This document shows, piece by piece, positions 9,569 through 14,048 of a DNA stretch of 49,192 nucleotides (positions within the stretch are counted from its first letter, which is position 1; the number at the start of each line of letters is the position of its first letter). The stretch spans positions 1-49,192 of the forward strand of contig NZ_MDWE01000019.1 of the NCBI RefSeq assembly GCF_001715195.1, written 5' to 3'. This DNA is from Rhodohalobacter halophilus (GTDB lineage Bacteria; Bacteroidota; Rhodothermia; Balneolales; Balneolaceae). Position numbers and translations under genes: made by a program. Under the pieces are notes generated by a model. That model was not told where the DNA came from, did no database searches, and saw nothing but the letters and a program-made list of their open reading frames with translations.

Positions 9569-10434
9569 AATTTTCCATTTTAGCAAATCCAGACAAATAC
9601 TCAGTACAGGAACCGATAGATCAGATTTTTAAGTGGTGCGAAGAGAATAACCATTCACTTTATGTGCCTCTTTCTCTCAAATCACACTTTCCCGATCTGG
9701 ACTCCTCCAAAAGCGCCACGGCTCTAAAATCTGAGACAGATGCTGTACAAGAGAGTGATATCGTCATTGCGGTTGGAGGGGACGGAACGCTTCTTCACAC
9801 GGCACATCTAATTAAAAATGATAACCGGCCTGTACTTGGCATCAACTCCGGCAAGCTTGGTTTCATGGCCAACATTCAGCCTGATATGATTGATCATACA
9901 CTGGAACAGGTTGTTGCCGAAAATTATAAAATAGATGAGCGGAGAATGCTCAAAGCCACATCTTCGGGTGGCAACTCCTATTATGCCCTGAACGAGTTTC
10001 TATTTACAAAGAAAGAAACTTCTTCAATGATAACCCTCCAAGCAGATTATGATGGTGAGTTCATCAACAGTTACTGGGCCGATGGGCTTTTAGTTTCCAC
10101 GCCAACCGGTTCTACGGCTTATAATCTATCAGCCGGAGGCTCTATTGTTATGCCATCCACACCGGTAATGCTACTCACCCCCATCAACCCTCACACGCTC
10201 ACAACCCGCCCCCTGGTTCTGCCCGATAACAAGACATTGACTATTCGAAGTGCTGAGAGCGGTAAAAATACACTTTTTGCCTATGACGGAATTATACAAC
10301 CCAGCGAATCAGAGTTTGAGGTAAACATTGTGCGAAGTGATTTTTCCATTCGCTTAATTCAGCTTCCCGATCAAAATTATTTTGAAACCCTGCGAAATAA
10401 GTTAATGTGGGGAATGGATCGTAGAAAAGGATAA
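9565..10434 (+). CDS. nadK: NAD kinase
   Basis: NadK phosphorylates NAD to NADP. The 289 residues carry the diagnostic GGDGT at 71-75 (catalytic Asp73), followed by PVLGINSGKLGFMANI. Also present are the NEFLFTK segment (NE motif) and WADGLLVSTPTGSTAYNLSAGG (the diphosphate-binding region), and MLLTPINPHTLTTRPLVLP. These match the bacterial NadK fold in order and spacing. The ATG overlaps the stop of the solute-binding lipoprotein by 4 nt, a sign of translational coupling. No terminator hairpin is evident after the stop. Confidence 0.95.
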   Translation: MKFSILANPDKYSVQEPIDQIFKWCEENNHSLYVPLSLKSHFPDLDSSKSATALKSETDAVQESDIVIAVGGDGTLLHTAHLIKNDNRPVLGINSGKLGFMANIQPDMIDHTLEQVVAENYKIDERRMLKATSSGGNSYYALNEFLFTKKETSSMITLQADYDGEFINSYWADGLLVSTPTGSTAYNLSAGGSIVMPSTPVMLLTPINPHTLTTRPLVLPDNKTLTIRSAESGKNTLFAYDGIIQPSESEFEVNIVRSDFSIRLIQLPDQNYFETLRNKLMWGMDRRKG

Positions 10435-10563
10435 AACTCTCCAAAATCACTTCAATTACACTCATATTTCCGTTATTTTATAAGGAGCAATCTTCAGGGG
10501 ACCAAACTTGAAATGCATTAACGTCTGCCAAAAAGTTTATTTCTAACTAAAAAACAGAAAATC

Positions 10564-11520
10564 ATGAAAGTAACAGTAGTAGGAGCCGGTGGAAATGTTG
10601 GCTCAACCGTAGCATTTAGCATTGCAGAGCGCGATTTCGCCAAAGAAGTTGTGATGCTCGACATCGAGAAGAAAGACGGCGACAAAACGTTTTACCCTTC
10701 CAAAGGACGGGCGCTCGATCAGTGGGAAACAGCGCCCATTTCCGGTTTTGACACACGCCTGACCGGAACCGTTGATTACAAAGACACCAAAGATTCTGAT
10801 GTTTGTGTGATTACGGCCGGTGTTCCGCGTCGTCCGGGAATGAGCCGGGATGACTTGCTCGAAATTAACAGTAAAATTGTAAAAGGAGTAACCGAAGAGC
10901 TGGTGAAATATTCACCGGACACCATTATTATCGTGGTTTCAAACCCGCTGGACGTGATGACCTATGTGGCACACACCGCCAGCGGCCTCGATAAAAATAA
11001 AGTAATGGGTATGGCCGGTATTCTGGACACCGCCCGATACCGCGCATTCCTGGCAAGCGAATTGGATGTATCACCTAAAGATATTCAGGCACTGCTGATG
11101 GGCGGTCATGGCGACACCATGGTTCCGCTGCCTCGTTACACAACCGTTTCGGGTATTCCGGTTACACAGTTGATCGACAATGACAAACTGGACGCCATTG
11201 TTGAGCGAACCAAGAAAGGCGGCGGCGAAATTGTTGGCCTGATGGGGACATCCGCATGGTACGCACCCGGTGCAGCGGCTGCTCAAATGGTTGAGGCAAT
11301 AATGCTCGATCAAAATCGTATATTCCCATGTGCCGTGTTGCTCGAAGGCGAGTACGACATTAAAGATATCTTCCTGGGCGTACCCGTTAAACTGGGTCAT
11401 GGCGGTATCAAGGAGATTATTGAGGTTGATTTAGACGAATCAGAAACCGAACTTTTAAGAGCATCAGAAAAAGCAGTCCGCTCCACGTTGGATGACTTCA
11501 AAAAGCTGATGGACAAATAA
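10564..11520 (+). CDS. mdh: Malate dehydrogenase, LDH-like type
   Basis: Mdh interconverts malate and oxaloacetate with NAD(H) in the citric acid cycle. The N-terminal Rossmann motif is VVGAGGNVGSTVA. Substrate arginines occur in GVPRRPGMSRDDLLEIN (Arg89 and Arg95), and the arginine rather than glutamine at the first position indicates malate over lactate. VVSNPLDVMTYVA and the catalytic MGGHGDTMVPL (His182) follow. Length (318) is standard for the tetrameric LDH-like MDH typical of Bacteroidota and Chlorobi. It stands alone between nadK and an intrinsic terminator at 11581, so it is likely a single-gene transcript. No exact TAnnTTTG box was found in the 129 nt upstream. Confidence 0.96.
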   Translation: MKVTVVGAGGNVGSTVAFSIAERDFAKEVVMLDIEKKDGDKTFYPSKGRALDQWETAPISGFDTRLTGTVDYKDTKDSDVCVITAGVPRRPGMSRDDLLEINSKIVKGVTEELVKYSPDTIIIVVSNPLDVMTYVAHTASGLDKNKVMGMAGILDTARYRAFLASELDVSPKDIQALLMGGHGDTMVPLPRYTTVSGIPVTQLIDNDKLDAIVERTKKGGGEIVGLMGTSAWYAPGAAAAQMVEAIMLDQNRIFPCAVLLEGEYDIKDIFLGVPVKLGHGGIKEIIEVDLDESETELLRASEKAVRSTLDDFKKLMDK

Positions 11521-11707: not shown

Positions 11708-11747
11708 ATAACTGAATACAAATTCCATTCACCATTAGGCTAGATAT

Positions 11748-12254
11748 ATGATCGGCTACAGTGAAGTTTTACAAACCATGGCAGCGATGATCATCTTTTC
11801 GGTGATTATGATGAACGCCAACCGAATGATTCACCGGAATACGGTGATGCAAATTGACGGTGAATTGGAACAGCAAGTAATTTCGATCGGTCAGGAGATT
11901 ATTGAGGAGGCCAGAACCAAAGCTTACGACAGGGTAACCTACAATAGCTCTACACCGCCTACAATGATCCCAGAAGGCTTTACTCCTTCATCCGACTTTC
12001 CAAACAATAAAGAGCGCCATCAATTTATCGCTTTTGAAGATTACCATGGTTATACAGATACCATTCAAACCTCACACGGTGATTTTATCATTGATGTAGA
12101 AGTCTTCTATGTAGATGATGTTAACTACGAAGAAATTCCAAATCAGTCTACGTTTAAAAAAATTGAAGTTAATATTACAAGTGACTTTTTAAGAAGCGGT
12201 GAACAACCTCGAGGTTACAAATTGGAATTTATACGGAATTATTATGCAGAATAA
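11748..12254 (+). CDS. PilV-like membrane-anchored protein, pilin-like gene 1
   Basis: The 168-residue product begins MIGYSEVLQTMAAMIIFSVIM: one hydrophobic helix at residues 8-24 reaching almost to the N-terminus. An amphipathic helix follows with EQQVISIGQEIIEEARTKAYD, which resembles the 'iaqe-ieea-ska-yd' part of PilV/type II pseudopilins. The rest is a polar, probably beta-rich, exported domain with no cysteines. No canonical prepilin site (G then F-x-x-x-E) is present: after Gly3 the acidic residue is at +3, not +5. An in-frame stop just upstream excludes a longer leader. It is the first of three similar genes in a row. The pilin-like assignment is by architecture, not by a recognised family match. 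Confidence 0.6.
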   Translation: MIGYSEVLQTMAAMIIFSVIMMNANRMIHRNTVMQIDGELEQQVISIGQEIIEEARTKAYDRVTYNSSTPPTMIPEGFTPSSDFPNNKERHQFIAFEDYHGYTDTIQTSHGDFIIDVEVFYVDDVNYEEIPNQSTFKKIEVNITSDFLRSGEQPRGYKLEFIRNYYAE

Positions 12255-12278
12255 CATTTCAATTGTGGAGACTCTGAT

Positions 12279-12926
12279 ATGAATCTCAGCATGGTTACAA
12301 GTTTTATCATTGCCGGCATGATTATGCTGGGCATTGTGATGGTCAACATTAATGTGAGCAATAGTACTGCAGAGCTAACAATTGCGCAGATTACAAGAAG
12401 TCATGTTTCCAGTATTACAGATATGATCAATGATGATTTCTCAAATATGGGTTATGATGTCAACCAAACGACCCAGGAAACAATGGGTGCCATATTAAAC
12501 TGTAAATTGGCTAACCGAATCAGTTTTTATCGAAACATACATGACGACTCAACAGTAACCCCAAAACTGATTGAATGGGAGTTTAAGAAAACTGAGGATG
12601 TACCCGGCACAAGTAATGATGATCACAGGCCGTTGGTTCGTACAGTCTATAATGATGATGGTTCTATTTTAGATCAAACAGATATCCTGCTGGGAGTAAC
12701 CCGTTTCGAACTGACTTACTTTGATGACACCAATTATGGTAAGCCAAAAAGTGAAGGAACGTCTGTTGCCACCGGCTGCTCAGACATCTCTAATGTAAAG
12801 CAAATCCATGTTGAACTGGAGGTGCAAAGTGCAGAAAAAATGTATAAGCGATCAACCGGAGATGGAAGATATGTTTCTTCGGTATGGGATAAGAGATTCA
12901 CTCCGATAAATTTAAATCTCGATTAA
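12279..12926 (+). CDS. PilW-like membrane-anchored protein, pilin-like gene 2
   Basis: The protein (215 residues) starts MNLSMVTSFIIAGMIMLGIVM, a single N-terminal helix, and continues with HVSSITDMINDDFSNMGYD, which recalls the 'l-dir-aGY' segment of PilW-type minor pilins. Two cysteines, in LNCKLAN and TGCSDIS, could form the disulfide loop typical of such proteins. A good ribosome site, GGAG, lies 9 nt before the ATG. In-frame stops upstream rule out an extended signal, and no G-F-x-x-x-E cleavage site exists. It sits 24 nt after gene 1 and 12 nt before gene 3, so the three are an operon. Exported, membrane-tethered location is inferred from the helix. Confidence 0.6.
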   Translation: MNLSMVTSFIIAGMIMLGIVMVNINVSNSTAELTIAQITRSHVSSITDMINDDFSNMGYDVNQTTQETMGAILNCKLANRISFYRNIHDDSTVTPKLIEWEFKKTEDVPGTSNDDHRPLVRTVYNDDGSILDQTDILLGVTRFELTYFDDTNYGKPKSEGTSVATGCSDISNVKQIHVELEVQSAEKMYKRSTGDGRYVSSVWDKRFTPINLNLD

Positions 12927-12938
12927 AACCAATCCACT

Positions 12939-14048
12939 ATGGGACGAGCAATGTTAATTATCTGTGCGGGCGTTTTGATGTCAATCGGTATTATATCGAT
13001 GGGAACAAACAGCACAGCACGTATGATCACTCAGCAAAATGTAGATTATGCCGAATACACGATGGCTAAAAACGCTGCTCACACGGCAGTACAAATGGCT
13101 ATGCAGGAGATCAACAAAGATGACGACTGGCCAAATTCTTACAGTGAAACATCTCCCTGGGTAACCGAAGTACAGGGGTTGGAAGTCAGGTTGCATACCG
13201 TTTACGAACAAAACGACTATTGGACATCCGGAGATCATGATAATATCTGGTTCTACTCCAAAGCACAGCTCGGTAAAGAGTTTGGTAACCGTTTCGTGGA
13301 AGTTCGTAGTCGCTACGAAAAGCGACCGTTTTTTGAACTGGTACCTGATTTTACCGGAGCACTTCAATTACCCACCGACGTAGGTAACTTTAACGTTGAT
13401 GGTGCAGCACATGAGATTAATGGGGTCAATTCTTCTTGCCCGGAAAACAAACCACCTATTACCACACAATCCCAAACTACCAAAGACAAATTGCTTCTTG
13501 AACCCTTGAAGAAGGATGGCGGAGATCTATTAGACGGTGACATCGTAGTCGATTCTGAACTGAATTACGAGCCGACCGATGAGCTTATTGAGCGCTTATT
13601 AAATTCCGGATATGCAGAGACTATTTATGGTGATAAATCTCAGTACGGAACTGCGACCACTCCCGGAGTTTTTCTTGTGGAGGATCAGGTTAAACTCAAA
13701 GGGAATACGGAAGGCTATGGTATTTTAATTATTCGAGATAACGGAAATATGGAAATGGAAAGTGACCCAGAACTAAGTGTTGCCGGTAACTTTACATTTA
13801 ACGGTTTGGTTATTTTTGAAAATGCCAAGCTATTTGACGGCAAGGGTACACCCACAATCAATGGCTCTGTTCTAATTGGAAATACAGGGGATAATTTATT
13901 GGATCCCATCGACATTGATTTGGGTGGAAATATTGAAATCAATTACGATTGTAAGGGCGAGAACTATGCAAAAATGGCTGCTGCCAATGCTGTTGAGCAG
14001 AATAAATACACGATTTTGGTTGCAACAGAAAATATCCGCCGAAACTAA
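12939..14048 (+). CDS. PilX-like membrane-anchored protein with repetitive beta domain, pilin-like gene 3
   Basis: The 369-residue product starts MGRAMLIICAGVLMSIGIISM (one helix). YAEYTMAKNAAHTAVQMAMQEI follows, resembling the 'nAa-tAa-aAl-i' helix of PilX-type minor pilins. The C-terminal half has the pattern GVFLVEDQVKLKGN, GYGILIIRDNGNMEM, FTFNGLVIFENAKL, INGSVLIGNTG. These are short repeats like the beta-helical 'G-lvv-G-l-G' blocks found in PilX-associated and DUF4900-type proteins. Two cysteines (SSCPEN and YDCKGE) bracket this domain. No prepilin peptidase motif is present. It may be the distal adhesive or scaffold member of the trio. Transcription probably ends at the hairpin at 14111, inside the convergent gene. 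Confidence 0.6.
   Translation: MGRAMLIICAGVLMSIGIISMGTNSTARMITQQNVDYAEYTMAKNAAHTAVQMAMQEINKDDDWPNSYSETSPWVTEVQGLEVRLHTVYEQNDYWTSGDHDNIWFYSKAQLGKEFGNRFVEVRSRYEKRPFFELVPDFTGALQLPTDVGNFNVDGAAHEINGVNSSCPENKPPITTQSQTTKDKLLLEPLKKDGGDLLDGDIVVDSELNYEPTDELIERLLNSGYAETIYGDKSQYGTATTPGVFLVEDQVKLKGNTEGYGILIIRDNGNMEMESDPELSVAGNFTFNGLVIFENAKLFDGKGTPTINGSVLIGNTGDNLLDPIDIDLGGNIEINYDCKGENYAKMAAANAVEQNKYTILVATENIRRN

Follow-up and report, generated by a model that had tools for sequence, protein, structure and literature searches.

The window, a stretch of 49,192 nucleotides from Rhodohalobacter halophilus (contig NZ_MDWE01000019.1 of assembly GCF_001715195.1), carries three adjacent genes, here called p1, p2, and p3, which probably encode minor pilins, in the PilV-PilW-PilX (or GspI-GspJ-GspK) positions, of a type IV filament lacking the class III leader. 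With somewhat less confidence, we also consider it probable that type IV pili in several classes of this phylum are built from pilins that are never processed, the leader, the peptidase, and probably N-methylation, all regarded as fundamental to every type IV filament, being dispensable there and an M-G-Q-Q-Q start replacing them. The computations gave the gene content and order, the leaderless starts, the paucity of peptidase matches, the pilin-type profile of the major subunit, and the pilin-like models of p2 and p3; that a filament forms, that the N-termini stay unprocessed, and that the trio sits at a retractable tip and binds a ligand there is inferred from these. The features are as follows.

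p1, 11748..12254, plus strand, 168 aa, ATG start: putative minor pilin in the PilV/GspI position, with a leaderless N-terminal helix and a periplasmic domain.
p2, 12279..12926, plus strand, 215 aa, ATG start: putative minor pilin in the PilW/GspJ position.
p3, 12939..14048, plus strand, 369 aa, ATG start: putative minor pilin in the PilX/GspK position, ComZ-like; candidate tip protein.
p3 residues 131-342, 13329..13964, plus strand: predicted beta-solenoid insert (low-confidence model).

Starts, cysteines, and predicted folds of the trio

The closest in-frame stop codons upstream of the three genes were a TAG at 11736 for p1 (3 codons before the ATG), a TAA at 12252 for p2 (8 codons), and a TAA at 12924 for p3 (4 codons), and no alternative ATG, GTG, or TTG was present between stop and start in any of them. 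Because the stops lie so close and no alternative start exists, an in-frame leader is not possible for p1, p2, or p3. None of the three products has the pattern G-[FMLIAVWYST]-x-x-x-E within its N-terminal 40 residues. p1 contains zero cysteines, p2 has them at residues 75 and 167, and p3 at residues 9 (within the helix), 167, and 338.

An earlier sequence-only reading of this DNA had described three adjacent genes with an N-terminal helix near the initiator Met and without G-F-x-x-x-E; the open reading frames were confirmed as described, and the pattern scan agrees. That reading held upstream stops to exclude longer leaders in the first two genes, which is correct for p1 and p2 and applies equally to p3. 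It had also given cysteine pairs to two members and a beta domain to the third: the pair in p2 was found, whereas p1 has none and p3 combines a pair with the beta domain. Its central proposal, that the three proteins may form a pilin-like assembly at a tip or on the surface without using the prepilin peptidase, is supported by the p2 and p3 folds, the pilus operons, and the scarcity of the peptidase.

The short start is shared by homologous proteins. Among the distinct proteins from all loci collected, and relative to the first possible start, the helix core lay within 15 residues in 51/54 p1, 54/54 p2, and 54/56 p3 proteins, as well as in 98/100 of the major pilins treated below; in the seven exceptions, the frame could begin earlier or the helix was called elsewhere. 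p3 begins with M-G in 50 of 54 cases and p2 with MN in 38 of 54, while the p1 starts vary (MV, MS, MI, MA, and others). By our count, 28 of the 31 rows of the p1 family alignment have D or E at position 6. Canonical type IV pilins carry Glu5; the acidic residue of p1 would stand at position 5 once Met is removed, as a possible counterpart.

The AlphaFold2 model of p2 (pLDDT 66, three sequences in the alignment) superimposed on EpsJ (2ret_F) with Z 10.0 and an rmsd of 3.1 over 136 aligned residues. Its top 10 structure matches (Z 8.0-10.0) were XcpW/EpsJ/GspJ minor pseudopilins and a Thermus pilin-like protein, and the next row had Z 3.0. p2 is thus modeled with the GspJ/PilW fold and holds the middle-gene position of the trio. 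The p3 model (pLDDT 56, four sequences) matched Streptococcus sanguinis PilA (7o5y_A; Z 10.9, rmsd 2.9, 103 aligned) and Thermus ComZ (6qvi; Z 8.2, rmsd 12.0, 234 aligned). Residues 131-342 of this model matched the ice-binding beta-helix 5uyt (Z 7.6, rmsd 3.6, 148 aligned) and FfIBP (4nu2; Z 6.6, rmsd 3.4, 142 aligned), so that PilA and FfIBP match the two parts of p3 separately. The model is suggestive of a pilin fold with an inserted beta-solenoid, similar to ComZ. Structure prediction, which had been proposed as a check, gave models of p2 and p3 that resemble the pilin fold with modest confidence. Unrelated single-pass proteins are disfavored, since none of p1-p3 matched Pfam or NCBIfam above cut-off and the folds point to pilins; scans of their relatives gave scattered weak matches.

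Machine genes and gene neighborhoods

The genome from which the window comes (3.12 Mb, 97.8% complete, 92 contigs) encodes two T2SSE-family ATPases, one PilB-like and one PilT-like, and one PilC, and contig C64 carries all of these. On it a response regulator gene comes first, followed by those for a histidine kinase, PilC, PilB, a cNMP-binding protein, and PilT, and then by the beginning of a PilM-like gene, inside which the contig ends; the last gene is called PilM-like by position and by its relatives and has no profile match. The PilB-type ATPase matched PF00437 (5.4e-101) and TIGR02538 (1.7e-133, under the curated cut-off of that model), the PilT-family ATPase matched TIGR01420 (2.4e-91; 306.5 bits against a cut-off of 319.1), and the PilC platform protein matched PF00482 above cut-off (1.3e-28). 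No match to Peptidase_A24 (PF01478) or N_methyl (PF07963) was obtained in this genome. The sequence-only reading had reported no pilus ATPase, peptidase, or platform gene; this is true within the window, whereas the ATPases and PilC are encoded on C64. The search for pilB-, pilC-, and pilD-like genes elsewhere in the genome, which it had suggested, recovered PilB- and PilC-like genes and no peptidase family match. A response regulator, a histidine kinase with a cNMP-binding domain, and a separate cNMP-binding protein (L003:4709-6696 and 10294-10797) stand beside the PilC/PilB genes, and a small protein like the latter recurs, by eye, between PilB and PilT in several relatives.

Among named genomes, a sequence search recovered three loci and no others, all in Balneolaceae MAGs. 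In the sample of 92 genomes of the family (Balneolaceae), p3 homologues were found in 53. In all ten p3 neighborhoods fetched from these 53 genomes, p1, p2, and p3 followed one another in the same order, which answers the earlier call for a check of conserved trio order, and several of them held a second trio. Because the order recurs in 10/10 and p3 homologues occur in 53/92 genomes, the trio is more than a chance association. In four genomes of the family (L069-L072), it lies within one operon, in the order ~140-residue MGQQQLLL protein, PilC, PilB, p1, p2, p3, PilT-like, PilM-like, PilO-like, and secretin-like. The minor pilins of canonical operons are ordered V-W-X. Among 36 machine loci hand-picked from the hits, pilC, p1, p2, and p3 shared the locus in 17, and these 17 include loci from beyond the family, both in the same class and in further classes of the phylum. 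Machine products of the relative L080 matched PilO (4.8e-6) and the secretin family PF00263 (4.2e-30), and a PilN match was weak (0.0059, below cut-off); the C-terminal part of the secretin-like protein at L080:6954-8795 also matches SPOR weakly (0.032, under the cut-off).

p3 tracks PilC within the family: PilC was present in 44/45 good genomes with p3 versus 14/21 without it. In a quick PilC tree, a fully supported branch separates 59 machine-type rows from the canonical PilC of genome G025 (L133). The machine of the trio is built like a type IVa pilus, for which the class III leader and the prepilin peptidase are defining features, neither of which was found here.

Additional trios were observed at several loci. 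In Balneolaceae, a diverged second trio stands in tandem with the first (L053:6303-8660, L055:7311-9596, L056:10640-13050), and the third member of this trio, which is longer (430 aa in L053), has a DUF4900 match above cut-off. In genome G156 of another family, two complete p1-p2-p3 trios lie in tandem inside the machine operon (L118:9436-14246). In part of Balneolaceae, the trio appears to have moved away from the machine and is duplicated, which would fit exchangeable pilus tips.

The leaderless major pilin and the prepilin peptidase

M-G-Q-Q-Q opens 88 of the 98 short-start major pilins. When a profile of 28 major pilins was compared with the PDB, six sequences were recovered at E<=1 (best 0.0028): PilE1, geopilin (three sequences), Thermus PilA5, and one 'uncharacterized protein'. 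All of these matches begin at profile position 9, which pairs with chain residue 6 in 4/6. If residue 6 is taken as mature numbering, position 4 pairs with residue 1, and hence the leaderless pilin begins three residues before the mature pilin. Comparison of the same profile with canonical prepilins of the phylum gave an hhalign E of 5e-5 and a probability of 66. Beside the MGQQQ gene, second pilins that begin with MANKE and keep the short start were seen at L073:16556-16924, L096:2011-2373, and L107:967-1329, and in other classes three to four near-identical tandem MGQQQ pilin genes precede PilC (L172:9082-10432, L174:8319-10463).

Co-occurrence was examined in a class sample of 244 genomes, in which the leaderless pilin was found in 157, PilC in 164, A24 in 19, and N_methyl prepilins in 27. 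PilC occurred in 144/157 genomes with the leaderless pilin versus 20/87 without it (p 1e-28), A24 in 15/157 leaderless-pilin genomes versus 4/87 others (p 0.22), and A24 in 16/27 N_methyl genomes versus 3/217 others (p 2e-15), all p-values ignoring the shared ancestry of the genomes. The prepilin peptidase therefore tracks canonical prepilins and not the leaderless pilin, which tracks PilC. No A24 match was obtained in 142 of the 157 leaderless-pilin genomes, and a second, canonical-type PilC was present in 14 of the 19 A24-positive ones. In six single-contig genomes (G041, G094, G120, G156, G189, G247), the pilin was present and A24 gave no match. A draw of 394 genomes from the phylum contained the leaderless pilin in 129, of which 55 lie outside the class, and A24 in 51, with both in 15.

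In the mechanism we propose, p1, p2, and p3 would each start at, or a few residues before, the post-cleavage point of a canonical pilin. Their helix would serve as an uncleaved signal anchor in the inner membrane, with the N-terminus in and the C-terminus out, and the initiator Met would perhaps be trimmed where residue 2 is small. The subunits would thus wait in the inner membrane in a state that, in canonical pilins, is attained only once the leader has been cut off; PilC and PilB would then extract them and assemble the fiber. A p1-p2-p3 complex would prime and cap this fiber, PilT would retract it, and it would exit through the PilQ-type secretin. At the tip, the p3 beta-solenoid may touch the target (a surface, a cell, or DNA) and act as an adhesin or as a DNA or surface receptor.

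Several observations weigh against this interpretation. The trio is separate from the machine genes in the window and in several relatives, and genome G058 (96% complete) holds trio or p3 copies but no PilC match. A search with the pilin profile found no MGQQQ-type major pilin in the genome of the window; a weak match on contig C45 (E 0.001) was not accepted, being a membrane-protein frame without the MGQQQ start. The models are shallow (three to four sequences) with pLDDT 66 for p2 and 56 for p3, and the profile search suggested by the sequence-only reading returned no significant PDB match for the p1-p3 profiles. The p1 and p2 profiles likewise gave no significant hhalign match to canonical PilV/PilW alignments, and the assignment of p1 rests on its own family, gene order, and a sequence pattern. 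MacB_PCD matched 16 of 28 major pilins weakly (best E 7e-5; one member scored 15.6 bits against a cut-off of 27). The recall of PF01478 is imperfect: within the class, A24 went undetected in 11 of the 27 genomes with N_methyl prepilins, and the control Lactococcus lactis matches PF00482 and PF07963 but not PF01478. Even at a recall of 16/27, about 93 of the 157 leaderless-pilin genomes would be expected to be A24-positive if each had one, and 15 were observed.

Alternative explanations and known systems

Annotation errors often lie behind short starts, and the three genes might accordingly be ordinary type IV prepilins with miscalled starts. This reading is refuted for the window, barring a non-standard start or a frameshift, by the nearby upstream stops without an alternative start, and almost every relative shares the short start. 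A cleavage step of another kind may also be envisaged. The sequence-only reading had suggested that a noncanonical site may be used, and a non-homologous or very divergent peptidase could trim one to three residues from the start (such as Met-Gly or Met-Gly-Gln), perhaps with modification of the new N-terminus, so that processing would be replaced and not lost. The nearly invariant M-G-Q-Q-Q (88/98) and the M-G start of p3 (50/54) indicate that the N-terminus is read, and the imperfect recall of PF01478 leaves room for such an enzyme. However, the start is not common to p1 or p2, a GxGD pattern scan of the 36 machine loci and C64 returned no polytopic A24-like protein, and no extra conserved gene was seen by eye in the operons inspected; we give this explanation a rather small probability.

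The trio could instead have left the pilus to anchor separate surface assemblies near large exported proteins, the Balneolaceae machine genes being unrelated to it. Exported-protein genes flank the trio in 5/10 p3 neighborhoods (L052:89-16096; L053, L055, L056, and L057 by eye), G058 has trio copies without PilC, and in our reading of the list of open reading frames the trio of the window follows a malate dehydrogenase-like gene. Its presence inside the machine operon in four family genomes and in other classes, together with the way p3 tracks PilC, makes this separation quite improbable. The L052 neighbors include an Invasin_D3 protein of 1,739 aa that carries a type IX sorting tail, together with a DUF4402 protein and a 1,549-aa SPOR-domain protein. 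A chaperone-usher reading of the L052-L057 neighbors was dropped, as Pfam searches with five L052 proteins supported DUF4402 and SPOR/Ig-type exported proteins and no chaperone or usher. A type II secretion system (T2SS)-like pseudopilus, in place of a retractile pilus, agrees with the resemblance of p2 to GspJ/EpsJ and with the GspK position of p3. The machine operons nevertheless contain a PilT-family ATPase (2.4e-91, just below the curated cut-off) and a PilO-family match, and p3 has its closest analogue in ComZ, a protein of a competence pilus (PMC6561018); we regard the pseudopilus as unlikely, and favor minor pilins of a leaderless type IV pilus.

Accounts of type IV filaments treat leader cleavage by the prepilin peptidase as one of the core steps (PMC6668835, PMC4471445), and the enzyme is named among the core components of the superfamily (PMC6668835). 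In excerpts of the open-licence PMC literature, preprints excluded, neither leaderless type IV pilins nor a type IV pilus made without the peptidase was found described for this phylum. If the interpretation is correct, a widespread peptidase-free system would reveal what is essential in pilin biology and would inform the insertion, extraction, and packing of uncleaved helices and the roles of Glu5 and N-methylation.

With the type IVa pilus, the system shares PilB, PilT, PilC, and PilM/N-like proteins, along with PilO, the secretin, and a major pilin as seen in relatives, and it has three putative minor pilins in the V-W-X order. It differs in having no class III leader, no G-F-x-x-x-E, and, in most genomes, no peptidase match, and its leaderless major pilin has Leu in the place of the canonical Glu5 in the register of the PDB alignment. 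The GspI-GspJ-GspK tip of the T2SS is similar in that the p2 model matches EpsJ/XcpW/GspJ and in that it too combines a small, a middle-sized, and a large subunit, the last with an inserted domain. The trio is leaderless and linked to a PilT-like ATPase, however, and the predicted p3 insert is a beta-solenoid, unlike the alpha domain of GspK (PMC6561018).

In ComZ of Thermus thermophilus, a beta-solenoid interrupts a pseudopilin-like domain ahead of its last strand; the solenoid is closest to FfIBP, and ComZ was proposed to sit at the tip of a competence pilus. PilFind did not identify the protein, presumably because it lacks key motifs (PMC6561018). The modeled p3 likewise has a pilin-like domain with a solenoid insert that matches FfIBP, but its solenoid is shorter. 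In addition, the Thermus control T. composti matches the prepilin peptidase and N_methyl, so that ComZ works beside canonical pilins. The T2SS-like system of Cytophaga hutchinsonii is another type IV filament-like cluster of Bacteroidota, which in the excerpt of its description holds the Peptidase_A24 gene CHU_3197 and T2S-G (PMC5553014); it would be nearer to the accessory canonical systems of A24-positive genomes than to the leaderless machine.

The pil genes of Melioribacter roseus probably represent the leaderless-pilin system itself, the set having been taken as probably incomplete and leaderless pilins not having been recognized in the excerpted report (PMC3534657). Type IV filament loci or genomes in which no prepilin peptidase was detected have been reported for MSH loci, Nanoarchaeota, and Ca. 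Nanohaloarchaeota (PMC6668835, PMC4471445, PMC9563170). They differ from the present case in that genomes with MSH loci hold a peptidase elsewhere (PMC6668835), and the excerpts on the Nanoarchaeota and Ca. Nanohaloarchaeota do not describe those systems as leaderless (PMC4471445, PMC9563170).
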